Below, piece after piece: positions 6,018 through 55,230 of a DNA stretch of 64,000 bases. The notes below the pieces were generated by a model. It made no database searches. It had not been told where the DNA came from and saw only the letters and a program-made list of their open reading frames with translations. A program made the translations under genes and the position numbers. Source of the DNA: Sinomicrobium kalidii (lineage in GTDB: Bacteria > Bacteroidota > Bacteroidia > Flavobacteriales > Flavobacteriaceae); the NCBI RefSeq assembly GCF_021183825.1, contig NZ_CP089211.1:124001-188000 (forward strand), given 5' to 3'. How positions within the stretch are numbered: the stretch's first letter is position 1; the number at the start of each line of letters is the position of its first letter.

Positions 6018-7489
6018 AATATCCTTTTCAGCGCTTCCACAATATCTTCAGACAGTTTGAATTTATACACCAGGAAGAGGTAAACCAAGCCGATAAGAAC
6101 AGATTTCAGGACGATATTCACTAACGGATAAAAACCGAAATCCCAGACATGAGCAAAGCGACTGTGCGAAGCAAAACCAAACACCAGCAACACAAAGAGA
6201 ATGGCGAGGGTGGTCTTCAGAGTATTGCCCGTAAACGGATGCATTTTCAGTTTTGCATACACAAAGCCTATTTTAGAGCCGTTATATACCAACACCGCCA
6301 TAAGTGTGGCAAAAGCCGCCCCGTAAATGCCCCACAGCGGAATGAACACCATATTCAGCACCACGGTAAGGACCGCCAGAAAAATGCCGAAAAAGAGAAT
6401 GGTGCGGTAATATTCCGAATTGAACAAGATCGAATTATTGTTCCCCATAAGGTTTTCCGATAGCTTGGCCACGGCAATAAGGAACACTACCGTTATCCCG
6501 TCGCTGTAATTTCCCGGAATCACCCGGTAGAGCTCTCCGATGTTCAGTGTAATCCACAGGAACAACAGTCCGCCAATAACATAGAGGGTCAGGGAACTGC
6601 GTTTATACAGTTTCCGGAGTTCCTCCCCCTGGTTATCGTTCATCAACTTTGCGGTTAGCGGATAGGTAATCTGGTGCATGGCCCGCGAAGGTACCACAAT
6701 GACCATTGCAATATACACCGCCACACTGTAAAAGGCCACATTATCGATGATCTTGTACTGCCCGATCATAAACTTGTCGATGTCCAGTAACACTACTGCA
6801 ACAGACCCCGCAATAACGATCAGTGATGAGTATTTCCAGACCCGGCCTGCGTTGACGGGAAAAGTACAGATAAAACGGGGTTTTTGTACATTGTAGGCAT
6901 AGATCATCATTACCAGGGTGCGCAATACATACGCTCCCATAAGGTAAACGATAAAACGCTCCGTACCGATCCATCCGAAATACACTGCAAAAAGCAGAAC
7001 CATGACCACGGCACGCAGAAATACCTCTTTCATAAAATTTCCGAAAGTGGAGCGCATGTGCACCTTGCTCCACGCAAAAAACACTTCAAAATAAGCCATT
7101 GCAAAAGCTACGCCGTAAACGGCCCAGGCATAATCCTTTACAACAGGGTTCTTTTGCGCTAAAAACGCAGCGATATATTCATACCCCAATGTACCGAGTA
7201 ATCCGGCCGGAACGATAATGAACAGGGGCAGGATAAACATCATAAAAACGAATTTTCGCTGCTCCCCGCTTTCCTTATAAGAAGAAAAATACTTCACCAG
7301 CGTATTGTGCACCCCGAAAGCAAAAAGGGGCATGAGGATATTGGCCGTGGAAAGCAGGTAGCCCACCAGGCCGTAATACTCCTCGGTAAGAAAGTTGGTA
7401 TACAGAAAAAGCGTATTTACCGCTCCCAGGCCGAACCCCAGGTAAGTGCTTATCGTATTTTTTAAAGTCTGCCGGACTATGATTCCCAT
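5999..7489 (-). CDS. Polysaccharide flippase / oligosaccharide transporter (MATE-like, Wzx type)
   Basis: 496 residues with about 12-14 membrane segments and a start MGIIVRQTLKNTISTYLGFG typical for flavobacterial Wzx-like proteins. Such proteins flip lipid-linked glycans across the inner membrane for LPS or exopolysaccharide assembly. An in-frame ATG 45 bases upstream (7534) touches a 29-bp inverted repeat and is less likely. The next gene upstream is a GT4 glycosyltransferase on the same strand, about 170 bases away with the repeat between them, so the two may serve one glycan pathway. Confidence 0.85.
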   Translation of the reverse strand: MGIIVRQTLKNTISTYLGFGLGAVNTLFLYTNFLTEEYYGLVGYLLSTANILMPLFAFGVHNTLVKYFSSYKESGEQRKFVFMMFILPLFIIVPAGLLGTLGYEYIAAFLAQKNPVVKDYAWAVYGVAFAMAYFEVFFAWSKVHMRSTFGNFMKEVFLRAVVMVLLFAVYFGWIGTERFIVYLMGAYVLRTLVMMIYAYNVQKPRFICTFPVNAGRVWKYSSLIVIAGSVAVVLLDIDKFMIGQYKIIDNVAFYSVAVYIAMVIVVPSRAMHQITYPLTAKLMNDNQGEELRKLYKRSSLTLYVIGGLLFLWITLNIGELYRVIPGNYSDGITVVFLIAVAKLSENLMGNNNSILFNSEYYRTILFFGIFLAVLTVVLNMVFIPLWGIYGAAFATLMAVLVYNGSKIGFVYAKLKMHPFTGNTLKTTLAILFVLLVFGFASHSRFAHVWDFGFYPLVNIVLKSVLIGLVYLFLVYKFKLSEDIVEALKRILKKARR

Positions 7490-20870: not shown

Positions 20871-21923
20871 CCGCAATAAATACGGTATAGTGGTTTTCTC
20901 AGGCAAGTACCGCCCCGGGAGACTTTTTTGGTTTGTGAGTTGGGGAGTTTTGGAGTTGGGGAGTTTTGGAGTTGGGGAGTTTTGGAGTTGGGGAGTTTTG
21001 GAGTTGGGGAGTTTTGGAGTTGGGGAGTTTTGGAGTTGGGGAGTCCCGGAGTTTTGGAGTTGGGAGGGTATTGTCTCTCAGTTCTTAAAACCCTAACAAG
21101 TACACGTCATTCCGAGGAACCGACGAAGGGAGGTAAATCCAGCCCTGAACCCTTCGACCTGGCTAAGGATAAACTAAAGCCGAAGGGTGGCAATCTCTGG
21201 AAGCCGGCAACATACCTCCGGTGGCATGCGCATAACCTGCCAGGAGACCGCCGCGCTACAGCCTGTCCTGAGTTTATCGAAGGGCTCGCGGTGACGATTA
21301 TCTTAACGTCATTGCCAATTGATGCGCTTGCCGAAATGTTAATTCCCGGAGCTACAGAGGGTGTCATTATCGATTTATATGGTTGTCCAAATGTTATCCC
21401 TCACAGTGACGTATGGCTTCAACTTCGTAAAATCGTCGTTTACACAAATCTTTTTTTAATACTTTTGCCCCGGAGTTCGACAACTATTCCTCACGGTTTT
21501 TAAAAAAAATCGTATATTTAGATTTTAGCTTCCCCAACATGTAAAGTAAGGCGGAAGCTACTACCCCGGGCCGATACTTTATGAAAGCAGGGAGCTCCCG
21601 GAGTTCCTGCTTCGGCAGAATTCCATATAAAAAAACTGTATCCGGTCGTCCGGGGCATATACGGTAATCAAACCAGGGCGTTATTTTTTCCTGCCGGTAC
21701 AGGGAACTAACTAAACCTCTATGGGCATAAGGTCCATAGGTTTATTGCAGGCTGAAAGTCTGTTTGGCCAGGGATACACGAATATTTGTATAAATGACTA
21801 CTGGTAAGTCCGTGTATTCGTGGCTAAACTTTATACAAACTGAAGTTGCTGCAATAATCCCGATTATCCCGATAGCTATCGGGAGCAAAGGTTTTAAACC
21901 GCAAACCGAGACCAATAAAAAAC
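20871..21923. other. 1-kb spacer without a convincing gene, made of repeats
   Basis: It holds a 16-bp minisatellite (20937-21067), then mosaic dispersed repeats: about 21109-21300 contains CATTCCGAGGAACCGACG, CCCTTCGACCTGGCTAAGG and CCTGTCCTGAGTTTATCGAA, fragments of a kind often scattered in flavobacterial genomes. Near 21773 and 21811 are inverted TACACGAATA and TATTCGTGG motifs. Near 21840-21920, GAAGTTGCTGCAATAA and GAGACCAATAAA recur upstream of the AEC gene (31096-31150). Open frames through here have low-complexity or repeat-derived sequence. Confidence 0.7.
20937..21067. repeat. 16-bp minisatellite, about 7 copies
   Basis: Unit GAGTTGGGGAGTTTTG. Units 1-6 (20937-21032) are identical, unit 7 (21033-21048) ends GTCCCG, and a degenerate partial copy follows. 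G and T are confined almost entirely to this strand. Confidence 0.95.
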
Positions 21924-39411: not shown

Positions 39412-39977
39412 ATACGCAGGAAGGATTTCCCGGTACGCCGGATGCAACCCGAATCGCGGTGGTTCGGCCTCAAACCCCGGTGCTTTTGTATTGTTCCACA
39501 GCAGAACAGGTGCGTTATGCGGAAAAACAATATACAAATGCCGCACTTTGAAACGGTTTCGCTAAGGAACAAACTTGTTATGCGGCAGAACAAAACCGTT
39601 ATACGGAGAAACGATATACAAATGCCGCACTTTAAAACCGTTTTGATAAGGAACAGACTTGTTATGCGGCAAAACAAAACCGTTATACGGGAGAACAAGA
39701 GCATTATGTGAGGTAACAAAATACAAATGCTTCACTTCAACACCGTTTTGATAAGGAACAGACCTGTTACACAGCAGAACAGGATCGTTACACCGGGCAA
39801 CGGTATACAAATACCGAACTTTAAAACCGTTCCGACAGGGAACAAACTTCTTATACGGGAAAACAGGATCATTGCGGGGCGGAAGAAACCGGTCCCTGCG
39901 TATAACAGGCATCCTCAGGCAGATATTAATGATGGCCCTATTTATGGAAATAACAGGAGAAGAAAGAGGTTTGACCT
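39412..39977. other. Gene-poor spacer between doxX and the CRISPR array
   Basis: Mostly the 21-bp repeat field (39501-39920). Because 21 is a multiple of three, three or more of the six frames stay open across it (for example heptads RNKLVMR, QNKTVIR, RNDIQMP, HFKTVLI on +). None has a ribosome site, domain or plausible start that favours it, so no gene is called. Confidence 0.6.
39501..39920. repeat. 20 tandem 21-bp units with an 84-bp higher-order pattern
   Basis: Units of four types follow each other: A (GCAGAACAAAACCGTTATACG without its last base fits 20: GCAGAACAAAACCGTTATAC), B (GAGAAACGATATACAAATGC), C (GCACTTTAAAACCGTTTTGA), D (AAGGAACAGACTTGTTATGC). Order: A B C D A B C D A A' B C D A B C D A and two degraded units. 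An extra A unit makes one period 105 instead of 84. 21 bp equals two helical turns, so the A-tracts are in phase. Function unknown. Confidence 0.9.
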
Positions 39978-42900
39978 GTTGTGGATTGCTTTCAGAATTG
40001 TACTTTTACCTAGGATTCACAGGCAACGTTATTGCTGACGGTAAAGGATATTTGTTGTGAATTGCTTTCAGAATTGTACTTTTACCTAGGATTCACAGGG
40101 TTCCTTCTAATGTGGCGACTACTTAATGGGTTGTGAATTGCTTTCAGAATTGTACTTTTACCTAGGATTCACAGGCATTGTTTTCCATATCACTTAAATT
40201 TTTCGGTTGTGAATTGCTTTCAGAATTGTACTTTTACCTAGGATTCACAGGTAGGAATATGCAGTCTATATCTTTTGCTATGTTGTGAATTGCTTTCAGA
40301 ATTGTACTTTTACCTAGGATTCACAGGTGGTAAATACTTTGAGGCACACAGGCTTGCGTTGTGAATTGCTTTCAGAATTGTACTTTTACCTAGGATTCAC
40401 AGGTGTCTCTTCAATTAAAGATAGTCGATTGTAGTTGTGAATTGCTTTCAGAATTGTACTTTTACCTAGGATTCACAGGGTCTCCCGCTATATCTATACC
40501 TAAATACCTGTTGTGAATTGCTTTCAGAATTGTACTTTTACCTAGGATTCACAGGGCAATAGACATTCAACCGATTTTAGACGAGGTTGTGAATTGCTTT
40601 CAGAATTGTACTTTTACCTAGGATTCACAGGTATCTCCGTTCATAGACTTTCTGCCTTTGGGTTGTGAATTGCTTTCAGAATTGTACTTTTACCTAGGAT
40701 TCACAGGAAACTCAACATATGGAGAATATAATGCATGTTGTGAATTGCTTTCAGAATTGTACTTTTACCTAGGATTCACAGGTTAGCTCTTTAACCACAT
40801 CGATCAAAAGTCGTTGTGAATTGCTTTCAGAATTGTACTTTTACCTAGGATTCACAGGACCGACCGTTGAAAGTGTCAAATCCAACCTGTTGTGAATTGC
40901 TTTCAGAATTGTACTTTTACCTAGGATTCACAGGACGTAGCTTTTATTATATCTCGTTCTGTTGTTGTGAATTGCTTTCAGAATTGTACTTTTACCTAGG
41001 ATTCACAGGGCAAACTAAACCCTAAGAACCCTCAAGCATGTTGTGAATTGCTTTCAGAATTGTACTTTTACCTAGGATTCACAGGATTCTTAGGTGATGC
41101 TTTCACGGAAAATAAGTTGTGAATTGCTTTCAGAATTGTACTTTTACCTAGGATTCACAGGTTACGTACCCTGTTTAGCATCAACGTCCTGTTGTGAATT
41201 GCTTTCAGAATTGTACTTTTACCTAGGATTCACAGGTTAAACCCGTCGGCCTGTCTGTTCGATTGCGTTGTGAATTGCTTTCAGAATTGTACTTTTACCT
41301 AGGATTCACAGGTATCCGGTCGTTGTAATCGTATCGACAGGGGTTGTGAATTGCTTTCAGAATTGTACTTTTACCTAGGATTCACAGGATTTCTTCTTTG
41401 AGGTCGAGGGCGAGTGTGGTTGTGAATTGCTTTCAGAATTGTACTTTTACCTAGGATTCACAGGTATCCGCGTATTATGGGTATTGGTTAGGTAGTTGTG
41501 AATTGCTTTCAGAATTGTACTTTTACCTAGGATTCACAGGCTACCCCCAAAACAAATAAGGCGGTATTTGTTGTGAATTGCTTTCAGAATTGTACTTTTA
41601 CCTAGGATTCACAGGAAACATAAAGTAAAGATCATGTGCAACTGCGTTGTGAATTGCTTTCAGAATTGTACTTTTACCTAGGATTCACAGGGACATTCAG
41701 TATTCCGGTGTCAGTGATATTGTTGTGAATTGCTTTCAGAATTGTACTTTTACCTAGGATTCACAGGATCCGGCCGTGTTGGTCACTATCAGTCTTTGTT
41801 GTGAATTGCTTTCAGAATTGTACTTTTACCTAGGATTCACAGGTATACGTGAAAGGACAACCATTTTTATTTAGTTGTGAATTGCTTTCAGAATTGTACT
41901 TTTACCTAGGATTCACAGGATTGGGATGTTCAGTGATAAGAACAGTACAGTTGTGAATTGCTTTCAGAATTGTACTTTTACCTAGGATTCACAGGACGTA
42001 GCTTTTATTATATCTCGTTCTGTTGTTGTGAATTGCTTTCAGAATTGTACTTTTACCTAGGATTCACAGGGCAAACTAAACCCTAAGAACCCTCAAGCAT
42101 GTTGTGAATTGCTTTCAGAATTGTACTTTTACCTAGGATTCACAGGATTCTTAGGTGATGCTTTCACGGAAAATAAGTTGTGAATTGCTTTCAGAATTGT
42201 ACTTTTACCTAGGATTCACAGGTTACGATACCCTGTTTAGCATCAACGTCCTGTTGTGAATTGCTTTCAGAATTGTACTTTTACCTAGGATTCACAGGTT
42301 AAACCCGTCGGCCTGTCTGTTCGATTGCGTTGTGAATTGCTTTCAGAATTGTACTTTTACCTAGGATTCACAGGTATCCGGTCGTTGTAATCGTATCGAC
42401 AGGGGTTGTGAATTGCTTTCAGAATTGTACTTTTACCTAGGATTCACAGGATTTCTTCTTTGAGGTCGAGGGCGAGTGTGGTTGTGAATTGCTTTCAGAA
42501 TTGTACTTTTACCTAGGATTCACAGGTATCCGCGTATTATGGGTATTGGTTAGGTAGTTGTGAATTGCTTTCAGAATTGTACTTTTACCTAGGATTCACA
42601 GGCTACCCCCAAAACAAATAAGGCGGTATTTGTTGTGAATTGCTTTCAGAATTGTACTTTTACCTAGGATTCACAGGAAACATAAAGTAAAGATCATGTG
42701 CAACTGCGTTGTGAATTGCTTTCAGAATTGTACTTTTACCTAGGATTCACAGGGACATTCAGTATTCCGGTGTCAGTGATATTGTTGTGAATTGCTTTCA
42801 GAATTGTACTTTTACCTAGGATTCACAGGAGTTCATCGACGGTTTTGAATATGAGTTCCGTTGTGAATTGCTTTCAGAATTGTACTTTTACCTAGGATTC

Positions 42901-43209
42901 ACAGGGATAGTTTCATTTCCCAACATCCCAATATCGTTGTGAATTGCTTTCAGAATTGTACTTTTACCTAGGATTCACAGGCATCCCCGTAGACCGCGGC
43001 ACCCACCTCGGGTTGTGAATTGCTTTCAGAATTGTACTTTTACCTAGGATTCACAGGAATCGAATCCGTGAGTTCGATAAAGAAATGGTTGTGAATTGCT
43101 TTCAGAATTGTACTTTTACCTAGGATTCACAGGAGTCATAACCGCGGAGCAAAAGGCCGCTCCGTTGTGAATTGCTTTCAGAATTGTACTTTTACCTAGG
43201 ATTCACAGG
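39978..43209 (+). CRISPR. Type II-C CRISPR array, 43 repeats and 42 spacers
   Basis: The 46-nt repeat begins GTTGTGAATTGCTTTCAGAA and ends ACCTAGGATTCACAGG. Spacers are 30 nt, except six of 29 nt. Only the first repeat (39978-40023) differs, with G for A at position 7, which marks the old end; II-C arrays often carry the degenerate repeat at the transcription start. Each repeat holds TTG (2-4) and TACTTTTA (24-31) 19 bp apart, a near-match to a Bacteroidota promoter, so each crRNA may have its own start. The anti-repeats of both tracrRNAs pair with the + strand, fixing crRNA direction as +. Spacers 13-23 are present again as 27-37. Confidence 0.98.
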
Positions 43210-43279: not shown

Positions 43280-43639
<360 letters not shown>

Positions 43640-43646
43640 TTATTTT

Positions 43647-44564
43647 CTATGCAGAGTTTAATGTATCATGTTCGTATCGGGGATACAACAATCTGCGGCT
43701 TATGCCCATAAAACATTCGTAAAGGGAATTGGTGGTACGGCTCATGGCCACCATCAGGGGGCTTTTCTTCTCTTCTATGATTACATCCATGGCCGGAATG
43801 GTGAGCAATAATGTTTTTTTGTCTTTCGTTAGTTCCGTATAATCACCACTGTCGGTTATCTCGCGTACCAGGCCGTCCACGTATACGCGATAGGGCTCCA
43901 TGATATCATCGGCCAGGCAGAAAGCATTGTATTTATTGCTGTGGAAAATACCAACGGAAGGCAGCATACCGCTACTTACCAATGCCCTGGCAGCTATAGC
44001 CCTTAAAATAGCATAGCCGTAATTGAGCAGGTTATTGGGCGGTATACCTTTCTGATTACGGCTAAACCCTTTAATATCGTTAAAAAGCCGCTGAAAATAA
44101 TAGGCTGCTGCAATGGCTTCGTGGTTTTCGGCATCCCCGCTTCTTACTTCAGTGGCCCAGCGCTTCAGTTTTTTAGCATTATGTCCGTAACCCGTCAGAT
44201 GGGCCGCCTGGTTACCGATCTTTGCCGTTACGGTCTGTTGCCAGAGGTTTTTCTTTAACGGCAGGCTGGCATTCAGCTGGTAACGGATACGTTCCGTTTG
44301 TTCGCTATGGCCTACCAATGGCTGTAAAAAGGAACACGGCAGGTGCTGTTTGTCACAGGTGATCACTGCAGTTTTATTTTGTACCAATTTCATAAGCAAA
44401 CCGGTAGTAACCGTGATCTGTGGATTTTCCAATACGACATAGCCCAAATCTTCAACTGGGATGGTTTTCTCTTCCTTTTCCGCTTCGGGGAAATTTACGA
44501 CCAACTGTTCGTTTTTGGTGCTCAGATAGGCCGGATTCCCAAAAAACAGGGTTCTTTTTATCAT
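43647..44564 (-). CDS. cas1: CRISPR-associated integrase Cas1
   Basis: 305 residues, II-C type. It opens MIKRTLFFGNPAYLSTKNEQ. Metal ligands are the Glu in NHEAIAAAYYF (about 149), the His in GIFHSNKYNAF (about 206), and the Asp/Glu of CLADDIMEPYR (about 221). All are present, so spacer acquisition should be possible. The gene lies between cas2 and a broken zinc-finger gene. Confidence 0.97.
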   Translation of the reverse strand: MIKRTLFFGNPAYLSTKNEQLVVNFPEAEKEEKTIPVEDLGYVVLENPQITVTTGLLMKLVQNKTAVITCDKQHLPCSFLQPLVGHSEQTERIRYQLNASLPLKKNLWQQTVTAKIGNQAAHLTGYGHNAKKLKRWATEVRSGDAENHEAIAAAYYFQRLFNDIKGFSRNQKGIPPNNLLNYGYAILRAIAARALVSSGMLPSVGIFHSNKYNAFCLADDIMEPYRVYVDGLVREITDSGDYTELTKDKKTLLLTIPAMDVIIEEKKSPLMVAMSRTTNSLYECFMGISRRLLYPRYEHDTLNSA

Positions 44565-44595
44565 TGGCTGGTAATTAATTGAACAATAAGCTAAA

Positions 44596-44978
44596 TCATC
44601 AAATTATTTTCAAAGTTCCCTCCCCTTTCGTATCAATAGTACCGCCTTCATACCCGCAAACGCTTATCCTGGGAGAATTAACTACAGGCAAGGCGTCTTT
44701 GCCTTTGCGGCTCATCGGGGCCTCTCCTTTGACTTGTTCCATCATATCTTCGTATTCCTTTACCCTGTCGTGATCGAGCATCTCCCGGACCTCAAAAAAT
44801 CCCACATCCCTCCGCTCTGCTCTCTTTTTACGGGATCAGGCTCTGCCTTTAGCAAAAATGACCTGCCCGATTTATTCCAGATCATCTGTTCTTCCAGGTA
44901 TTTTTTAGATGCCTGTTGATCCCCGCTTTGGCATAGTGTTTTTTGCAGAACAGGCATTCGCCTATTGATTTTGTTTTT
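44596..44978 (-). pseudogene. Remnant of a pRiA4b ORF-3-like zinc-finger protein gene
   Basis: Pieces of one protein lie in different frames, in order along the - strand: ECLFCKKHYAKAGINRHLKN (zinc-finger-like, near 44975-44910), then EEQMIWNKSGRSFLLKAEPD in a second frame, then EVREMLDHDRVKEYEDMMEQ and LPVVNSPRISVCGYEGG in a frame ending at 44599. The N-terminal finger, SFLLK strand and late NSPR-x-x-VCGYEG motif occur in this order in Bacteroidota plasmid pRiA4b ORF-3 family proteins, but the middle is missing. It breaks the cas9-cas1 operon. Confidence 0.5.
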
Positions 44979-45018
44979 TGGAAAAATTAAAAAGCCTTAT
45001 AAAAAGAAACTCTTTTGA

Positions 45019-48000
45019 TTATGTCTTTACTTTTGAAATATTCCCTAATCTATCTACTTTGAGTTTGACGCAGGTTTCTTTAATCATTGTACCTGAGTCT
45101 TCTCTTGTCAATTTTCCTTTTGAATTTACTACGTATTCTACTTTTCCATCCCAAGCTCTTGCTGATTTATTCCCTGAACCCAATTCTTCATTATCAATAA
45201 TGGATGAAGAAACCCTATGGGGTACGAACAAACATTTTCCCTGTGTAGTATCTGTCATTTTATAGATACTACTCGAAATGTGTTTCCGATTATTCCAATC
45301 AATCGCTTTTTCAACTTCTATTCCAGATTCAATTTTTTCCCTTTCCTCATTTGTAGGCATATAAACCAAATCGCCCGGAGATAAAATAATCTTATCAAAT
45401 CCTTCTTTACCTTCAGCAACAGGTTTACCATTTACTACTTTTTCAATGGCCTTGTGAGTAGCAATTGACCTAAAATCGGAACGTTTTTTGGTTTGTTGAT
45501 TTTCGTACATTACAAAATAAACGTTGCTGCCTTTGTCAGTTTCATAAAATCCTCCATTAAACATATCTTCAATGTCAACAGTTCCGTCTAAACGAGTAAC
45601 AGACCTAATTTCCTTTCCAATCTTAGGATTTTCAATTGCTTTTTTGTTTAGCTTTTCAATACCCTCTGTATTAAATGCTTCTTTTGCATTATTGTCGTAT
45701 TCAAGAATGTGTTCAAGAAATAGTTTGTTAAAAGCACTTTGATACTTCATTTCAGAGATTTCAAGACCTGCCTTTTTTATGATGTTCTGTTTTTCATTAG
45801 GCAAAGAATCAAAGTATTCTTTATTTATAAAAGTAAAGTAGGGAAAATCATTTTTCATTTTTTCTACAGTCAATTTCTCTGCATACTCCTTTTTAGTTAA
45901 AGCCATTCGCTTAGTTTTGTATGAAACAAAATGTGCTACTTTAATTTTTTCATATCCTATCCCATTAAGTTTATAAACGATTTTGTATTGAACTTTCCCA
46001 TTTTTATTGATTTTATCAGTAGTAACTTTTACACTGTTCCTTTTCAAAAAGTTTTTCATCTCTTTTAATAGTTCTTCTTGCTCATCTATTGCAAAATTTG
46101 ACTTACTTACAATATTATCAATAATCTGTCGTGCTTGTTTATCATATATATAAGAAGCTGTCTTTCTTTTTTCTTTATCAGAATTGACAAGTTTCTTTTT
46201 AATATGTATTTTGAAAGCATCTAAAACACCAACTTCTTTTACTTCTTTCAACCATACCACACCCAAAGGCTCCTTAAACATAGATTTCCGAACAGCCATC
46301 CATTTTTTGTTTGATTTTTGCTCTTTGAATTCTTTCTTGAGCTTATCGTTTACCATTTTATAGTAAGCCGTTCTGTTTTTAGGCTTGGAAATAATTTTGT
46401 TATTGGTCTTAAAGCTTACTATCAGTTTTTCCAATTCGTCTTTGACATCTTTCGTGAAGTTTTTCCAAGGTTGTTTAAAGTCCCTAATTTTGCCTTTTAC
46501 TAATGATTGTTTAATTTTTTTAATTTCTTCATCAGTATCAGCAGCACTGAGCGTGTTCAAGTAGCGTATATGTTCTCGTGTGGTTGCCGCAACAATCAAG
46601 GCATCTAAAGCGTGATGACGGTGGTCTATACGCTTGATGTTTAAACTTTGATTTTCTTTTACATTAAAATGATAAACAGGATTGCCGCGTTCATCATTTT
46701 CTTTAACAATATATGTATTACCAGTAATTTCTTCTAAACGCTTAAAACGTGGTTTGACAATTTCTTTCCAAACACTATTTAATCCCCAGTTGTTTTTGAG
46801 TTCAGACGTTATTGCTCCACCTGTAAATAAAATTCCGTTTTCACTTTTGGCAACAGGAGCAAGCAATTCAGATAGTTTTCGTCCTATATATCGCGTATCG
46901 TTTAATTGTCGCTCTACAAAATCGTCAGGAACTTCTGTAGCCAATAGGTTTTTGAGTTTTGCTTTTTGGTGTTTAAAGGTTTCCTTGCAATTGGATTCGT
47001 ATTCATTTTCGCCTAAGATGAAATACTTTTTCCCATTTATTTCATATTCTTTACCGTCCTTTCCTCCAAATCGAGCAATAAAATTTCTCGCAAGCATACT
47101 ACCTTTATATGGTTCAGGATTTATTGCTGCTTCTGAAATAACCAAGTTGTTAAAACTGTCATTCTTCATTTTTGCACGTGGTATAACGTGTTCAATTTCA
47201 TACTGCGTTTTGTTAAATAATTTACTTAACGGAATTATTTTCCCTGTATAAGGCGAACGGCTGTTTTGGCTTAACCAAAGAGCATATTTTTTTATTTCTT
47301 GGTTGGTGGGTATTTTCTCTTCTTTTACTTTTTTTATCCACTCTGATTCAGATTTATTGGATAAACTTCTCCAAATTCTAAATTTGTTAATATCGACAGG
47401 GCTTTCGGGATTTGGCTTTACTTCAAATGTTGCTTTTTCTTTTATTTCCGTATCAACATATTGCTCAAAACCATCATTCATCAGTTCATAAAGCATTTTT
47501 TTGATTCGTTGTTTTTCACTAAAATTATTTTTATTATTTTCTGAAATTTGTTTTCTTCTATCAGCATTATTTTTTAGGTTTCGACCTAATTCTATATGTA
47601 TTTCGTCTATTTCGCCATATTGTTTCCAAACATCACGTACCAAGAACATTGTTTCCCTTACCACTTGTTCTACAATTGGGTTTCGTAAACTGTTATTTGG
47701 TATCTCCTTTTGAATGTATTTGGCAAATTCTTCAATATCGTTAATTTTGATTTTATCTTTTTCAGAATGTTTGTCATAAATCAAATAGCCTGCTTGGTAA
47801 GTACTCAATCCTTTCGTTAAATCACTTTTGTTAATAAAACTTTTCAGCACTTGCTTTTGAACGTCATCATCTGCTACTTCATTCAGGTGCTTAATGTTGT
47901 TGTTAATACTGTTCAAACGTTCTTTAATTTGTGTTGCCCTAGGATTGATACTTTTCAAGCATTTCAAATACTCTTCAATTTCTTTTTTGATTTTCTTTTT

Positions 48001-50088
48001 AGTAGTATTCTTTAATTGGTTTTCCGTTTCAGCAACGAGTTCTTCAATCGGAGTCCAATATTTTCCACAACGCATTACAGACAATAGTTTTTTAATGGCA
48101 CAAGCAGAATAAGAGCCATATTCTTTTTTTAGTTCAGGAAGTTTGGAAATGGCTAAAGCAACTCTTTCCTGCACCTTGAATACGTTCCATTTTTCAGTTT
48201 TAATCCATTGGCTATTTTCACCATCTTCATTTCCTTTTTTCCAACCTAATGCACTCATTATTCCTTTCTCAGATTTCTTTTCATCTGAAGAACTAATGGA
48301 ATAATCAATATGCCATAGTTTCATCAGCTTTTCTTTGTCTTCTAAAATACTTTCATCATCACATTCCGCTTTCTTGAAAACGGAACGGTAACGAGTTAAT
48401 ATTTCGTTACCTTTTAAAGCATCACGATTGGCAAAAAGGTTTATTCTATGCGAGTGCTCTCCATCTTTTTTGCCCGAGATTACAATGTCATTTTCAGGCT
48501 TATTTTCTTTAATCAGATTTAGTATATCTTTTTCTGAAATTGAAGCTTTGGAATTAAATAAATCAAATAGCTTTTCCTTAACCGTATCATCTATGTATGA
48601 TGAAGTAAATTCTTTATCTATCTTGGTTTTCCCGTCAACTCTGTATTCTCTTTTGAAGAACCTAATATTGTGTATATCTTGCCATATCCTGAACTCCTGG
48701 AATAAAGGCGAAGAACGGGGAATACATTTTAATCCGTAGGTTTCACCATCAATTCCTTTGCGTTTTTCATAACGACATTCGCTTATCGAGTTTTTCTGTG
48801 ATTTTAATTCACGTTGGTAGTAAATAATATCGTTACTGATAATGTGTAGCAAATCATTGTTTTGAAATTCAGCGAGTTTTGGCATGCAATTTTTAGCCTG
48901 GGTAGGATAAAGGATTTCGGCCAATTTGGTTAAGGTTGCTTTGTCCGAATTAAGTTCTGCCAGTTCAGAGTTTAGCTCACATTGCTTATTCCAAATAGCT
49001 TCCAATTCTTTCTCATAACGCCACCTGTAAACTGGGAATTGGCGGGCTTTGTAATTTCGTTTTGCTAAATATGCTTCTTTTATTTGTTCATAAAAATATT
49101 CACCCGGATGTTGATTTTTTTCTTGTATTTTTTCACTTAAAGCCGTTGTACATAATCCCCAATCACTTTCTTTGGGCATTTGCGGTTTGTTTTGAGTGTG
49201 CTTTCCATTTTTGTCAATCTTTTGGGTAACTAAAAATGTAAATTCTTTACCAACCCATTCCGGTTCTTTTTTCCTAGTTTCTTCCCAAGTTTCCATTCTT
49301 GGGTCTTCTGCTTCTATGAAATAAACATTTGAGATATTTCCTTTCCTATCTTTCTTTTCTTCTTTAAAAGTTGCCGCTTTTATCTTGGTAATTGAAACAA
49401 ACTGCGTTTCTATGCCATCAGAATAATCCTCATTGTCTTTTCTTTTTATAAATTCTTTATAGGGTAAAACATTAGTTGTTTTTAAATCTTTTCGGCTGCT
49501 CTTAAAACCTCTACGCTGATTGAGCATATATATAATGCGCACCAATTCCGGAATTGTGATTTGTTCAGTCAGCGCTTTCTTTCTCAAAAAATAAACAATC
49601 CAGTCTTCGGGAACAATGCTTTTACCCTTTTTGCTTTTCTTTCCCTCAATACCAAATTCTTTTTCAAATTCTAATATTGTTTTTTCTGAAAAATTCAGCA
49701 CTTTACTAATATGATGGTTGCGCCTAAATTCATCATCATATTTTATTCTATCTTTATATTCTCTACTGTCATCAAGCTGAAAGTCTTCCGGCACCCATTT
49801 CAAAAATTTAAAAACTCTTAATAACCGTGTTCTACGAAGTTTATATCTATGTTTTAATCTGCGAGATCCACGCTTACTGCGTCTGAAAGCAGCTTTAGTC
49901 TCAGCTTGTGCACCGCTTTCAAACTTTTGTAAATAGTCTCCATCTGTTGGGATAATCCTACTTCCAATCCATTCAATTTCACCTTCATTTCCATAATTTT
50001 CAAATCCTTTTGGGATACTTATTAAACTTCCTCCAATTGAATTTGTACCAATATCTAAGCCTAAAACCTTTTTTCTTTTGTTTTCCAT
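45019..50088 (-). CDS. cas9: Cas9 endonuclease, type II-C, unusually large
   Basis: 1,689 residues from ATG 50088 (MENKRKKVLGLDIGTNSIGG); an in-frame ATG at 50121 lies inside tracrRNA copy 1 and is rejected. RuvC-I Asp12; Arg-rich bridge helix about 62-95 (FRRSKRGSRRLKHRYKLRR); RuvC-II Glu833 in IHIELGRNLK; HNH His967 in YEIEHVIPRAKM; RuvC-III His1159 and Asp1162 in HHALDALIVA. All catalytic residues look intact. The recognition lobe (about 96-820) and the part after RuvC-III (about 500 residues, with the PAM-interacting domain) are both long. Most II-C Cas9s are 1,000-1,500 residues. A+T-rich compared with flanking genes. No csn2 or cas4 is present. Confidence 0.97.
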   Translation of the reverse strand: MENKRKKVLGLDIGTNSIGGSLISIPKGFENYGNEGEIEWIGSRIIPTDGDYLQKFESGAQAETKAAFRRSKRGSRRLKHRYKLRRTRLLRVFKFLKWVPEDFQLDDSREYKDRIKYDDEFRRNHHISKVLNFSEKTILEFEKEFGIEGKKSKKGKSIVPEDWIVYFLRKKALTEQITIPELVRIIYMLNQRRGFKSSRKDLKTTNVLPYKEFIKRKDNEDYSDGIETQFVSITKIKAATFKEEKKDRKGNISNVYFIEAEDPRMETWEETRKKEPEWVGKEFTFLVTQKIDKNGKHTQNKPQMPKESDWGLCTTALSEKIQEKNQHPGEYFYEQIKEAYLAKRNYKARQFPVYRWRYEKELEAIWNKQCELNSELAELNSDKATLTKLAEILYPTQAKNCMPKLAEFQNNDLLHIISNDIIYYQRELKSQKNSISECRYEKRKGIDGETYGLKCIPRSSPLFQEFRIWQDIHNIRFFKREYRVDGKTKIDKEFTSSYIDDTVKEKLFDLFNSKASISEKDILNLIKENKPENDIVISGKKDGEHSHRINLFANRDALKGNEILTRYRSVFKKAECDDESILEDKEKLMKLWHIDYSISSSDEKKSEKGIMSALGWKKGNEDGENSQWIKTEKWNVFKVQERVALAISKLPELKKEYGSYSACAIKKLLSVMRCGKYWTPIEELVAETENQLKNTTKKKIKKEIEEYLKCLKSINPRATQIKERLNSINNNIKHLNEVADDDVQKQVLKSFINKSDLTKGLSTYQAGYLIYDKHSEKDKIKINDIEEFAKYIQKEIPNNSLRNPIVEQVVRETMFLVRDVWKQYGEIDEIHIELGRNLKNNADRRKQISENNKNNFSEKQRIKKMLYELMNDGFEQYVDTEIKEKATFEVKPNPESPVDINKFRIWRSLSNKSESEWIKKVKEEKIPTNQEIKKYALWLSQNSRSPYTGKIIPLSKLFNKTQYEIEHVIPRAKMKNDSFNNLVISEAAINPEPYKGSMLARNFIARFGGKDGKEYEINGKKYFILGENEYESNCKETFKHQKAKLKNLLATEVPDDFVERQLNDTRYIGRKLSELLAPVAKSENGILFTGGAITSELKNNWGLNSVWKEIVKPRFKRLEEITGNTYIVKENDERGNPVYHFNVKENQSLNIKRIDHRHHALDALIVAATTREHIRYLNTLSAADTDEEIKKIKQSLVKGKIRDFKQPWKNFTKDVKDELEKLIVSFKTNNKIISKPKNRTAYYKMVNDKLKKEFKEQKSNKKWMAVRKSMFKEPLGVVWLKEVKEVGVLDAFKIHIKKKLVNSDKEKRKTASYIYDKQARQIIDNIVSKSNFAIDEQEELLKEMKNFLKRNSVKVTTDKINKNGKVQYKIVYKLNGIGYEKIKVAHFVSYKTKRMALTKKEYAEKLTVEKMKNDFPYFTFINKEYFDSLPNEKQNIIKKAGLEISEMKYQSAFNKLFLEHILEYDNNAKEAFNTEGIEKLNKKAIENPKIGKEIRSVTRLDGTVDIEDMFNGGFYETDKGSNVYFVMYENQQTKKRSDFRSIATHKAIEKVVNGKPVAEGKEGFDKIILSPGDLVYMPTNEEREKIESGIEVEKAIDWNNRKHISSSIYKMTDTTQGKCLFVPHRVSSSIIDNEELGSGNKSARAWDGKVEYVVNSKGKLTREDSGTMIKETCVKLKVDRLGNISKVKT

Positions 50089-50105
50089 ATTCTTTCGTAT
50101 ATTTG
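50077..50105 (+). promoter_or_regulatory. Promoter of tracrRNA copy 1
   Basis: TTTG (50077-50080), 17 bp, then TATATTTG (50098-50105). It overlaps the cas9 start codon on the other strand, so tracrRNA and cas9 expression may interfere. Confidence 0.65.
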
Positions 50106-50111
50106 TGTTGA

Positions 50112-50191
50112 AGCAATTCACAATAAGGATTTATTCCGTAGTGAGGCTTGCCTCAATAAGTTTTTGCTCTTGTACTTAACAGGGGCTTTTT
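50112..50191 (+). ncRNA. tracrRNA candidate, copy 1
   Basis: Anti-repeat GAAGCAATTCACAA (50110-50123) pairs with the start of the CRISPR repeat. The nexus AAGGATTTATTCCG follows, then a GAGGC/GCCTC hairpin (50143-50154) and a terminator hairpin GCTCTTGT/ACAGGGGC (50166-50186, G-U pairs allowed) with TTTTT. About 80 nt. It begins 23 bases from the cas9 ATG, divergent. Confidence 0.75.
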
Positions 50192-50289
50192 ATTATATTA
50201 TTGCAGAAGAGATTATAAACCCTGCGTACTTCGTTGGTTTTTTTTGTTTTAGAAGCCATCTCAAAATCTAATCCTAAAATTCTTTTCAT
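50176..50289 (-). pseudogene. Possible relic of a second cas9 start
   Basis: A short - strand frame of 37 codons starts MKRILGLDFEMASKTKK. MKRILGLD is the usual first eight residues of Bacteroidota Cas9 (the RuvC-I Asp is residue 8), but the following GTNSIG is gone and the rest is not Cas9-like. It lies directly downstream, on the opposite strand, of tracrRNA copy 2, where a cas9 gene would be expected. Its stop overlaps the terminator of tracrRNA copy 1. The match is only eight residues, so chance is possible. Confidence 0.4.
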
Positions 50290-50437
50290 AATTAACGGTT
50301 AATATCGGTTAGTTAATAAGCTTTAAACATTGAAAAATCCGGAAAAATTCAGGGGGCTTTGATCTGGTTTTTAAAAATAATTAAAAAAAACTAATCCGTT
50401 TTACGGGAAACCTCACCTTCCGGTCTAAAATATTTTA

Positions 50438-50445
50438 TATATTTA
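50438..50445 (+). promoter_or_regulatory. -7 element of tracrRNA copy 2
   Basis: TATATTTA, one mismatch from TAnnTTTG; no clear -33 box, so weaker than the promoter of copy 1. Confidence 0.4.
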
Positions 50446-50451
50446 CTTCAC

Positions 50452-50536
50452 AATTTTGAAGCAATTCACAATAAGGATTATTCCGTTGTGAAAACATTCA
50501 AAGCGGCCCGTTTTCTAACGGGTCGCTTTCTTTTTT
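50452..50536 (+). ncRNA. tracrRNA candidate, copy 2
   Basis: Anti-repeat CAATTTTGAAGCAATTCACA pairs with repeat positions 2-23 with one mismatch and one bulge, a longer match than copy 1. The nexus AAGGATTATTCCG and TTGTGAAAAC follow as in known Bacteroidota tracrRNAs. Terminator arms AAGCGGCCCGTT (50501-50512) and AACGGGTCGCTT (50517-50528), then TTTTTT. It lies 340 bases farther from cas9 than copy 1. Confidence 0.85.
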
Positions 50537-50598: not shown

Positions 50599-52554
50599 AT
50601 GCAACTACCGATCAAAACACTGTTTCCCAAAATTTTTATCCTCCTGTTATCCGTTATAAGCCTGAGTTGTTCCCGGACTCCATCCTCCGCTGTGTTCACC
50701 AGCCCGGACGGAAATATCAGCGTACGGTTCGGCCTGTCAAAAAACAATACGCCTTTTTACCTGCTACATCACAGGGACTCCGTTGTCCTGGACAGTTCCC
50801 GCCTCGGGATCTTGCGGGAAGACGGAAATTTTTATACCGGCCTGTCCCTGCTTTCGGTAACAGATGAAGGGCTTGTAAAGGACCGTTACCACCTGTTGCA
50901 CGGCAAACAAAAAGACATTTCTTACGAAGCACATCATTATATAGCCCATCTGCAAAATAAGGACGGGCAGCCTATGGACATTGAATTTCAGGTCTCTGAC
51001 GACGGGGTCGCATTTCGATATGTATTTACTACTACGGACGAAGAGCCCGGTACCCTTAAAAATATCCGGGAAGAAATGACCTCCTATAACTTCCCCGGCG
51101 ATACCCGGGCCTGGCTACAACCCATGGCCAAAGCCAAAACAGGATGGCAACAGACCAACCCGTCTTACGAAGAGAATTACCTTGCCGATGTTCCCGTAGG
51201 GACGCCCTCCCCCATTGGCGAAGGCTGGGTTTATCCCGCCCTTTTCAAAACAGGAAATTCCTGGTCGCTGGTCAGTGAAACCGGTCTCGGACGTAATTAC
51301 TGCGGCACCCGGCTGCGTTATCACGAAAAAGAAAAAGCCTACCGGGTTACTTTTCCGCAAAAGGAAGAGGTTTTTCCGGATGGAAGGCTGACACCGCAAT
51401 CGGTATTACCGTGGCACTCGCCCTGGCGTATTATTACCATCGGCAGCCTGCAAACCATTGCCGAGTCCACCCTGGGGACCGACCTTGCCGAACCGGCCAT
51501 TGCCATGGATACCTCTTTTGTTAAGCCGGGAGCCGCCTCGTGGAGCTGGGCCATACTGAAAGACGCCTCCATCACCTATGATGTTCAGAAGGAATTTATA
51601 GATTATGCTTCTGAAATGGACTGGCCTTATTGCCTGGTGGACGTGAACTGGGACACGACCATAGGCTACGAAAAAATTGCCGAACTGGCCGATTATGCCA
51701 AACAGAAAGGTGTAAAGCTCCTGATGTGGTACAATTCCGCAGGCAGCTGGAATACCACGCCCTATCATCCCCGGAACAAGCTGCTTACCGCAGCAAGCAG
51801 GCGGGAAGAGTTCCAAAAGCTCCGCGATATGGGGATCGCAGGGATAAAAGTGGATTTTTTCGGGGGGGACGGACAATCCATGATCGCCTATTATCACGAT
51901 ATTTTCGAAGATGCCGCCCGGTACCGGTTACTGGTGAACTGTCACGGTACCACCCTGCCGAGGGGCTGGCAGCGTACCTATCCGCACCTGCTGACCATGG
52001 AATCCGTAAAGGGATTTGAGTTCATTTCCTTCGAACAGGAAAATGCCGACCGCGCCCCGGAACACTGTTCCATACTGCCCTTTACCCGGAATGTTTTCGA
52101 CCCGATGGATTTTACGCCCATGTGCCTCACCGAAATCCCCAACATAGACCGGAAAACCACGAGCGGGTTTGAACTGGCACTTCCCGTACTGTTCCTCTCG
52201 GGAATACAACACATCGCAGAGACCCCGGAAGGCATGTCGAAGGTTCCCGATTATGTGGTCAGCTATCTTAAAAACCTTCCCGCCGACTGGGATACTTCCC
52301 GCTTTATTGACGGTTACCCCGGGAAATACGCCGTTTTTGCCCGGAAAAAAGGGGGCAACTGGTATGTTTGCGGTATTAACAGTGAAGATGAAGAAAAAGA
52401 ACTGGTTGTTGACCTCTCCTTCATTCAGAATAACGAAGGGTATATGATTACAGACGGCGATACTCCCGGAAGCTTTACAAAGACCGGTGTCAGTCCGGCA
52501 GAAAAGGTTTCAATCTCCGTGAAACCGCATGGCGGGTTCGTGATGAAATTCTGA
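50599..52554 (+). CDS. Glycoside hydrolase family 97 (alpha-glycosidase), lipoprotein
   Basis: 651 residues. Lipoprotein signal ending SVISLSC. GH97 layout: N-terminal beta-sandwich (about 30-270), TIM barrel (about 280-560), C-terminal beta domain. GIAGIKVDFFGGDGQ carries an Asp where retaining GH97 alpha-galactosidase-type enzymes have their nucleophile, with a later Glu in LTMESVKGFE; inverting SusB-type enzymes use Glu instead. So retaining activity on alpha-galactosides is more likely, by motif only. Ends next to three lipoprotein genes on the other strand. Confidence 0.85.
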   Translation: MQLPIKTLFPKIFILLLSVISLSCSRTPSSAVFTSPDGNISVRFGLSKNNTPFYLLHHRDSVVLDSSRLGILREDGNFYTGLSLLSVTDEGLVKDRYHLLHGKQKDISYEAHHYIAHLQNKDGQPMDIEFQVSDDGVAFRYVFTTTDEEPGTLKNIREEMTSYNFPGDTRAWLQPMAKAKTGWQQTNPSYEENYLADVPVGTPSPIGEGWVYPALFKTGNSWSLVSETGLGRNYCGTRLRYHEKEKAYRVTFPQKEEVFPDGRLTPQSVLPWHSPWRIITIGSLQTIAESTLGTDLAEPAIAMDTSFVKPGAASWSWAILKDASITYDVQKEFIDYASEMDWPYCLVDVNWDTTIGYEKIAELADYAKQKGVKLLMWYNSAGSWNTTPYHPRNKLLTAASRREEFQKLRDMGIAGIKVDFFGGDGQSMIAYYHDIFEDAARYRLLVNCHGTTLPRGWQRTYPHLLTMESVKGFEFISFEQENADRAPEHCSILPFTRNVFDPMDFTPMCLTEIPNIDRKTTSGFELALPVLFLSGIQHIAETPEGMSKVPDYVVSYLKNLPADWDTSRFIDGYPGKYAVFARKKGGNWYVCGINSEDEEKELVVDLSFIQNNEGYMITDGDTPGSFTKTGVSPAEKVSISVKPHGGFVMKF

Positions 52555-54249: not shown

Positions 54250-55230
54250 ATGAAAAATCAAGTAATCGGCATTGACATTTCGAAAGCCACTTTGGATTAT
54301 TGTGTCCTAAACGAAGAAAACGTTCAAGTAAAAGCCAGAGGCGTCCTTGACAATCAACAACAGGCTATTGAGAAGTGGCTCAGTGATTTTGATACGACCA
54401 ATACAGTATTTGCTTTAGAACACACAGGTCATTACGGTACAACTTTGCTCAATAACCTTAGCAAAAAAGGCTATATCTTTTACCTTATCAACCCTTTGGA
54501 ACTTAAAAAGTCACTGGGTATACAAAGAGGCAAAAGTGATGCAAAGGATGCCTATCGGATTGCCGAATACACCATTACAAACAAGCACAAATTGAGCCCC
54601 TACCAACTCCCGGGGAAACACCTTAGCAAGCTCAAAGCACTTGTCAGGGCAAGAGAGCGTTACGTAAAGATGTCCGTACAGGTGCAAAACAGCTTAAAAG
54701 CCAATGAGATATTGCACCGGTCGATCGATGTGAGCATGTTAATCAGAGAAGAAAAGAAACAGTACAAATCCCTTCAAAGAAGTATTGAATCCATTGAAAA
54801 TGAAATGCGAAAGCTCATTGAGGCCGACCAAGACTTGAAAAACAGCTACAAGAAAGTCACCGCGGTTATCGGAGTAGGTCCGGTTATTGCTATAAAGTGT
54901 ATCGCTGAAACGGATAATTTTGTCAAGTTTGATAACCCAAGGAAATTCAGCTGTTACTGTGGTTTGGCTCCTTTTCCGTATCAGTCAGGAAGCAGTGTGA
55001 GGGGGAAAACAAAAACTCATTTTTTAAGAGACAAGTCATTGAAAGCTATTTTAACAAAGGGAGCTATTACAGCCATACAGCACGATCCCCAGCTCAAGGC
55101 ATATTACAATCGAAAAGTAAAAGACGGCAAACATCATATGAGCGTCATCAATGCCGTGGCCAACAAATTGGTGTTAAGGATTTTTGCAGTGGCCAAAAGA
55201 GAACAACCCTTTGTTAAATTAGTGGCTTAA
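54250..55230 (+). CDS. IS110 family transposase (DEDD recombinase)
   Basis: 326 residues. N-terminal RuvC-like domain with Asp9 (IGIDISK), Glu57 (FALEHTG), Asp97 and Asp100 (KSDAKDAYR). C-terminal Tnp_20 domain (about 200-290) with the serine motif YQSGSSVRGKT, Ser248 or Ser249 being the likely nucleophile. A coiled-coil link lies between (about 125-195). The frame is intact, so the element may be active. It uses an RNA (see bridge RNA) to pick target and donor. Confidence 0.95.
   Translation: MKNQVIGIDISKATLDYCVLNEENVQVKARGVLDNQQQAIEKWLSDFDTTNTVFALEHTGHYGTTLLNNLSKKGYIFYLINPLELKKSLGIQRGKSDAKDAYRIAEYTITNKHKLSPYQLPGKHLSKLKALVRARERYVKMSVQVQNSLKANEILHRSIDVSMLIREEKKQYKSLQRSIESIENEMRKLIEADQDLKNSYKKVTAVIGVGPVIAIKCIAETDNFVKFDNPRKFSCYCGLAPFPYQSGSSVRGKTKTHFLRDKSLKAILTKGAITAIQHDPQLKAYYNRKVKDGKHHMSVINAVANKLVLRIFAVAKREQPFVKLVA

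Follow-up and report, generated by a model that had tools for sequence, protein, structure and literature searches.

Two tracrRNAs of different descent beside one cas9 in a type II-C CRISPR locus of Sinomicrobium kalidii: a probable in-place effector exchange

We begin by considering the described systems that come closest to the locus studied here. The natural single-guide tracrRNA of Streptococcus pyogenes is said, after work by Workman in 2021, to be a long form that comes from one gene; our locus likewise holds a tracrRNA form beyond the usual one, but here the two forms are two genes. The CRISPR1 locus of Riemerella anatipestifer, as it appears in the accessible part of PMC5006608, has the order cas9-cas1-cas2, a repeat of 46-47 nt starting with GTTG and a 16-nt anti-repeat upstream of cas9, and in these features our locus is like it. 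Unlike that locus, as that part describes it, ours has two complete tracrRNAs of different descent together with the stub of a second cas9. According to the excerpt at hand of Fonfara et al. (PMC3936727), the Cas9 tree mostly matches the Cas1 tree, and dual-RNAs are exchangeable only between close relatives.

The exchange of adaptation and effector modules, by which the effector gene acquires a history different from that of cas1 and cas2, is already known (PMC6452270, in the part available), and the present case resembles it in this respect. It differs from the exchanges in that part in being a swap inside one II-C locus, where the old tracrRNA and a 5' stub of the old cas9 can still be seen; what appears to be new is this visible effector swap in place, with an orphaned tracrRNA. 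Judged by titles and abstract starts among the matches listed, a natural locus whose two tracrRNAs differ in descent has not been described in the open-licence literature.

The locus and its two tracrRNAs

The window, by which we mean the whole stretch of 64,000 nucleotides of S. kalidii DNA that was analysed (NZ_CP089211.1, positions 124,001 to 188,000), contains a II-C CRISPR locus made up of array, cas2, cas1 and cas9, with all three genes on the minus strand. The array (39978 to 43209, plus strand) has 43 repeats of 46 nt, GTTGTGAATTGCTTTCAGAATTGTACTTTTACCTAGGATTCACAGG, with one change in the first repeat, and 42 spacers of 29-30 nt. The resident adaptation module follows as cas2 (43280 to 43627, minus strand; TIGR01573) and cas1 (43647 to 44564, minus strand; TIGR03639), and after a gap with frames broken by stops (44565 to 45018) comes cas9 (45019 to 50088, minus strand, ATG at 50088), which encodes 1689 aa with matches to TIGR01865, PF18541 and PF13395 and with the RuvC and HNH motifs. 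All three genes of the II-C set are recognized by NCBIfam models, the best Cas1 model being the type II one, and a Pfam scan of seven neighbouring ORFs, four of them with matches, gave no match for csn2 or cas4. A GH97 family gene of 651 aa (50599 to 52554, plus strand; PF10566 and partner domains) adjoins the locus. The corresponding locus of a sister species (L019, from genome G002) has the same layout, including a GH97 gene in the same place, and the same repeat unit; its array has 30 repeats, and none of its 29 spacers is common to both.

Several features lie in and around the array. A block of 11 spacers is doubled between 40930 and 42790 (spacers 13-23 and 27-37), where ten pairs are exact and one, compared by eye, differs by 1 nt; an 84-bp tandem repeat (39513-39695) adjoins the far end of the array, an IS110-family transposase lies close to the CRISPR locus (54250-55230), and a 16-bp tandem repeat is found at 20932-21044. 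When the array was compared with 50,697 phage records (E up to 1), 11 matched, all at one 35-nt stretch formed by 27 nt of repeat and 8 nt of spacer. This search gave no spacer target and no readable PAM, and the idea of a PAM change along the array was set aside. Rfam at gathering thresholds matched nothing within the window.

Upstream of cas9, an earlier note on this DNA, made from the letters, had proposed two complete tracrRNA candidates in front of one gene. Both are there, on the plus strand, divergent from cas9 and complementary to the repeat. Copy 1, the putative tracrRNA of the incoming Cas9, extends from a predicted start at about 50110 to 50191, and copy 2, which we call the resident tracrRNA, from a predicted start at about 50450 to 50536. 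The sequence said to be common to them is an exact 24-mer, TTGAAGCAATTCACAATAAGGATT, at 50108-50131 in copy 1 and 50456-50479 in copy 2. The nexus reads AAGGATTTATTCCG in copy 1 and AAGGATTATTCCG in copy 2, and we distinguish the two forms as type 1 (ATTTATTCCGTAGTGAGG) and type 2 (ATTATTCCGTTGTGAAAACAT). Folding of the repeat with each anti-repeat, which had been suggested as a check, predicts a duplex for both: 15 bp at -19.5 kcal/mol for copy 1, and 23 bp with one bulge at -28.7 kcal/mol for copy 2.

The predicted parts of copy 1 are complete, comprising a promoter, the nexus ATTTATTCCG, and a hairpin followed by T5. The promoter, TTG-N17-TATATTTG (50078 to 50105, plus strand), overlaps the start codons of cas9 and had been called perfect; it does match without exception what we take to be the Bacteroidota-type consensus, a pattern with eight matches in the whole 64-kb window when both strands and spacers of 17-23 are counted. 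The note was also right that copy 2 has the longer anti-repeat; the promoter that it called weaker would be a -7-like box, TATATTTA (50438 to 50445, plus strand), without the TTG at -33, and a scan for TTG plus box found none for the tracrRNAs of the congener loci L018-L020 either. As to the terminators, each copy does have a predicted one of its own, and that of copy 1 was misplaced. The small GAGG/CCTC hairpin of copy 1 (50143-50154) precedes the actual candidate, an 8-bp hairpin GCTCTTGT-ACTTA-ACAGGGGC (50166-50186) with the T5 run after it (50166 to 50191 in all, plus strand; from sequence and folds). In copy 2, the type 2 nexus and a strong terminator hairpin with T-run (50499 to 50536, plus strand; from folds) are both predicted.

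Between the two copies lies a feature that the note had missed. On the minus strand, positions 50264 to 50289 hold the ATG and first eight codons of a second cas9 (26 nt), reading ATG AAA AGA ATT TTA GGA TTA GAT, or MKRILGLD, as identified by alignment with L018-L020; 27 of the first 30 nt in this region equal the start of the cas9 of L019. The likeness continues beyond the stub: 50264-50506 of the window is 83.4% identical over 247 columns to 11551-11796 of L019, a stretch that starts within the first codons of the cas9 there, and in the window only those codons are left. The ATG of the stub is 172 nt from the anti-repeat of copy 2, as compared with 175 nt from the cas9 ATG to the anti-repeat in L019, and the 37-nt core of copy 2 equals L019 at 37 of 37 positions, with 165 of 192 in the adjoining flank. 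Because of this alignment, the spacing and the core, we read copy 2 as the resident tracrRNA and the stub as what remains of the resident cas9, still in its old place and at a conserved distance from copy 2. The suggestion that one copy may be the partner of a lost Cas9 is thus strongly supported for copy 2. Queries of the genome with the L019 cas9 and with TIGR01865 matched only the present cas9, and no resident cas9 remains were found elsewhere.

Relatives of the cas genes and of the tracrRNA types

The cas genes of the window have conflicting relatives. Over MAFFT-aligned columns its Cas9 is 70.9% identical to that of L027, a Bacteroidales MAG contig, as against 34.6% to L019, while its Cas1 is 84.8% identical to L019 and 50.2% to L027, and its Cas2 93.9% and 56.5%, respectively. 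The trees, built by a quick method with 24 rows for cas1 and 25 for cas9, conflict in the same way. In the Cas9 tree, the window groups with L027 at an SH-aLRT of 100, and its placement with the L018+L019 clade is rejected (AU p 5e-110); in the Cas1 tree it groups with L019 at an SH-aLRT of 92, and placement with L027 is rejected (AU p 0.0019). The support for the cas1 grouping is moderate (84-92), and long-branch warnings apply to L027 and L124 in the cas1 tree and to L021 in the cas9 tree; L129, where cas1 has no match, is absent from the cas1 tree. Such a conflict between cas1/cas2 and cas9, here seen by both identities and trees, is what an effector swap leads one to expect.

Four of the five other genomes of the genus match both cas9 and cas1, and G005 matches neither. 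Two comparisons among the congener loci can be noted: L018 and L020 have Cas9s that are 82% alike and Cas1s that are only 49% alike, and in L020 and L021 the Cas1s are 93% alike and the Cas9s only 30%. From the mixed loci L018, L020 and L021, effector exchange seems to be recurrent in the genus.

L027 is the sole locus that the scan of the genome collection found for the present Cas9, with an identity of 67% by BLAST as compared with the 70.9% over aligned columns. In a protein collection, where the 7,994 candidates sharing most words were scored, the best full-length relative is 69% identical among the matches listed, and the named organisms among the best 120 of 723 matches include Bacteroidales, Chitinophagaceae, Ferruginibacter, Niabella, Pseudopedobacter, Vicingaceae, Ignavibacterium and similar. 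Within the window's family, 58 of 299 genomes have a cas9 match, at 26-48% identity among the matches listed, the window's own aside. No close cas9 was found in family f11, where 21 of 121 genomes match at E <= 1e-60 (32-43% among the matches listed), and family f10 gave 0 of 200 genomes at E <= 1e-100, an empty answer that is uninformative by itself. On plasmids, 51 records match, all below 60% identity, and 2 of them cover at least 80% of the query; the viral contigs searched with cas9 gave no relative. Low GC was ruled out as a mark of foreign DNA: the GC of cas9 is 0.326 in the window, and each of the six loci measured has an AT-rich cas9 (L018-L021, L027 and the window; 0.32-0.35, versus 0.46-0.50 for cas1).

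The tracrRNA of L027, one by pattern, is the closest counterpart of copy 1 among the loci read. It has the copy 1 nexus, a GAGG/CCTC hairpin with a different loop, and a terminator hairpin that is the same with a few changes and has CTTGTACTTAACAGGGGC in common with that of copy 1. Its promoter and short anti-repeat are built as in copy 1, and its distance to the cas9 ATG is 24 nt (25 nt for copy 1). On this likeness copy 1 so appears to belong to the present Cas9 and would be the working tracrRNA; since the anti-repeat of L027 is short too, that of copy 1 need not be the product of truncation or loss. Beyond this type 1 tracrRNA, at about 6810-6860, L027 has a hairpin AAGCGG..TCGCTTTCTT that resembles many type 2 terminators and may be a coincidence or a relic of another tracrRNA.

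The two types are distributed very unevenly. With at most one mismatch, the core GCAATTCACAATAAGGATT is present in 50 of 397 genomes of the family, at 51 places, and only the window's genome has two. All 30 family loci that were read, picked by the core match without a cas9 criterion, have the type 2 nexus, as do the four congener loci L018-L021. Of 19 further loci chosen by cas9 (17 of the window's family, 2 of family f11), 18 have exactly one type 2 core and none has type 1; L129 has no type 2 core by that pattern. Type 2 nexuses accompany Cas9s that are as far apart as 29-31% identity (L021 versus L018-L020). Among the loci read, the type 1 nexus occurs only in copy 1 and L027. Its pattern, with at most two mismatches, matches 10 of 395 genomes of the phylum, namely the window's own and nine where the flanks are without an anti-repeat, so that the 394 others yielded no further type 1 nexus.

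The proposed effector exchange and its rivals

We propose that a foreign cassette of cas9 and tracrRNA took the place of the resident cas9 and thereby took over its array, a reading that, on the comparison of loci, we hold to be very probable. The ancestral order, which is that of the sister species, would have been array, cas2, cas1, resident cas9 and, divergently, the resident tracrRNA. Later a cas9 from a different clade would have arrived together with its own tracrRNA, copy 1. The replaced part of the resident cas9 would run from a point close to the conserved 3' tip to codon 8 or so, and the first 26 nt of the gene would have stayed, with copy 2 behind them. The inherited array would now be used by the incoming Cas9 together with copy 1. 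What is observed is two tracrRNA classes, a cas9 stub at conserved spacing, and relationships of cas9 that conflict with those of cas1/cas2. The resident type is seen in the array, cas1, cas2, the stub and copy 2, another type in cas9 and copy 1, and the body of the resident cas9 is gone. That the incoming Cas9 could work with the old array would be due to GTTGTGAATTGCTTTC, the 16 nt at the start of the repeat that pair with the anti-repeat and are common to donor-type and resident repeats. If exchange is limited to closely related systems, as the available part of PMC3936727 has it, the arrival of the cas9 in company with a tracrRNA of its own would be explained. Against the proposed exchange it can be said that the type 1 class has two members, the window and L027, and that L027, the nearest relative found, is only 71% identical.

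The putative breakpoints can be placed as follows. The left junction is probably near the 3' end of cas9: positions 44939-44972, in the gap between cas9 and cas1, are 88% identical to the sequence just past the cas9 stop of L019, and the 3' end of cas9 itself (45026-45088) is 80% identical to L019, with L027 similar too, the 3' tip being alike in all loci compared. The right breakpoint would fall somewhere in the region from 50192 to 50263, the source of which a genome search did not find; this search gave no second copy, its matches being two weak ones, 19 and 24 nt long. Between cas9 and cas1, L019 has an ORF with a partial RhuM match (6577-7071; PF13310) and L018 and L021 have ORFs without a Pfam match; the window has no such full ORF.

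Could the two copies instead have arisen by tandem duplication of one tracrRNA, with their 3' ends diverging later? Their 24-nt exact identity is what such an origin would give. Beyond the core, however, each copy resembles a different outside locus, the copies are not each other's closest relatives, a cas9 stub stands between them, and the relatives of cas1/cas2 and cas9 conflict, which makes a duplication extremely improbable. The earlier note had ruled out a fresh duplication, and we go further in seeing no duplication at all, the copies being of different origin, each with relatives of its own. As each has such relatives elsewhere, the question of a chance likeness between them is answered by homology and not by statistics. 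A further reading concerns copy 1, which the note thought might regulate cas9. With its promoter over the start codons, the leader of a cas9 mRNA begun upstream would be antisense to the tracrRNA; this geometry is the same in the window and L027, and L027 has a perfect promoter-like site for cas9 beyond its tracrRNA (6777-6804). In the window, however, no perfect site for cas9 is seen between 50040 and 50599; the one candidate there, one off the pattern, lies on the minus strand between copy 2 and the stub (50453-50425). Since copy 1 resembles an ordinary cognate tracrRNA, adjoining the ATG as in L027, a regulatory role for it is not needed, and we think one distinctly unlikely.

For the part left to copy 2 several readings can be weighed. 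The present Cas9 might take both tracrRNAs, so that one array gives two populations of guide RNA, with the short duplex of copy 1 and the long duplex of copy 2. The anti-repeat core and a GG..CC nexus are in both copies, the pairing of copy 2 with the resident repeat is 23 bp long, and the type 2 core serves Cas9s at 29-31% identity (L021 versus L018-L020). But the present Cas9 and the resident type are about 35% identical, in the published tests no exchange was seen beyond closely related systems (PMC3936727, as far as its text was available), and the incoming gene brought a tracrRNA of its own, and such dual use is on balance doubtful. Alternatively, copy 2, which keeps a promoter-like box, core and terminator, may compete with copy 1; the decoy that the note had offered as one reading would survive in this form, as a possible side effect of copy 2. 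Over the first 24 nt of the repeat, partition functions with predicted transcript ends give copy 1 a net binding energy of about -12.7 kcal/mol and copy 2 one of about -16.2, which makes copy 2 the tighter binder by a predicted 3.5 kcal/mol or so; it would take up pre-crRNA, load the present Cas9 badly and dampen immunity. That its core is unchanged from L019 (37 of 37) agrees with this, as does the view, in the accessible text of a review (PMC11656645), that a phage-encoded inactive Cas9 with a phage tracrRNA likely sequesters crRNAs. The conservation of copy 2 may nevertheless all predate the swap, its box TATATTTA is weak and without TTG, and the folds depend on assumed transcript ends, and we regard such dampening as unlikely. 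We entertain tentatively a more general form of the idea: copy 2 would be transcribed and, having the longer anti-repeat, would outcompete copy 1 for pre-crRNA, with the result that the foreign Cas9 either gains another type of guide RNA or is restrained. Within the proposed exchange, copy 2 would be transcribable but non-cognate, at best neutral or a competitor for crRNA; that it would serve the new Cas9 poorly is suggested by the report of dual-RNA exchange only between close systems (PMC3936727, in the same excerpt).

Related elements and what the locus means

Elements related to copy 2 also occur in mobile DNA. Copy 2 matches six phage records, five of them Riemerella phages. In phages CRP19 and PJR4 (L140, OR089151.1, and L139, PQ820060.1; each at 1480-1590), a self-paired stem stands in place of the anti-repeat, TTGCGAAATG..CATTTCGCAA and TTATGAAATG..CATTTCATAA with compensatory changes, and is followed in the folds by a tracrRNA-like nexus and tail. 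This element has the look of a phage imitation of the crRNA:tracrRNA duplex and is perhaps an RNA anti-CRISPR; the word tracrRNA does not occur in the main text of the Racr paper (PMC10651486) as far as that text was accessible. Riemerella phage RAP44 (L134, 2430-2560) carries an intergenic mini-array of a partial repeat with a TATCTTTG box, a 30-nt spacer and a full repeat. Its spacer is exact in 11 phage records, one of them labelled as a Shigella phage, and is found over 29 nt in a twelfth; the tape measure gene of PP067980.1 matches it at 27 of 30 nt.

Two IMG/VR contigs, both with no cas9 match in their available stretch, carry similar elements: one has a complete type 2 tracrRNA by a phage-type integrase, identified with Pfam (L138, 940-1110), and the other a tracrRNA-like element without a clear terminator (L145, 435-452). 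The 46-kb Persicobacter plasmid pPP11 (L141 and L144) carries a pair of cas9 genes, one standing alone and the other with cas1 and cas2, and each of them has a type 2-like tracrRNA to itself; this arrangement is perhaps the stage before such a swap.

A change of effector without loss of memory is usually inferred from conflicting trees, and in the locus of the window the event itself can be seen. This locus points to cas9 and tracrRNA being able to move together as a unit, with the first 16 nt of the repeat as the likely rule of compatibility. Spacers that were picked for the PAM of the old Cas9 may not fit the new one. If copy 2 is indeed an active relic, the inherited spacer memory would be run through a foreign effector under the RNA of a dead one, and cas9 with its tracrRNA would be a transferable cassette, usable on any array with these first 16 repeat nt in common. 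The locus is thus a natural test of whether a tracrRNA left behind helps, hinders or is ignored.
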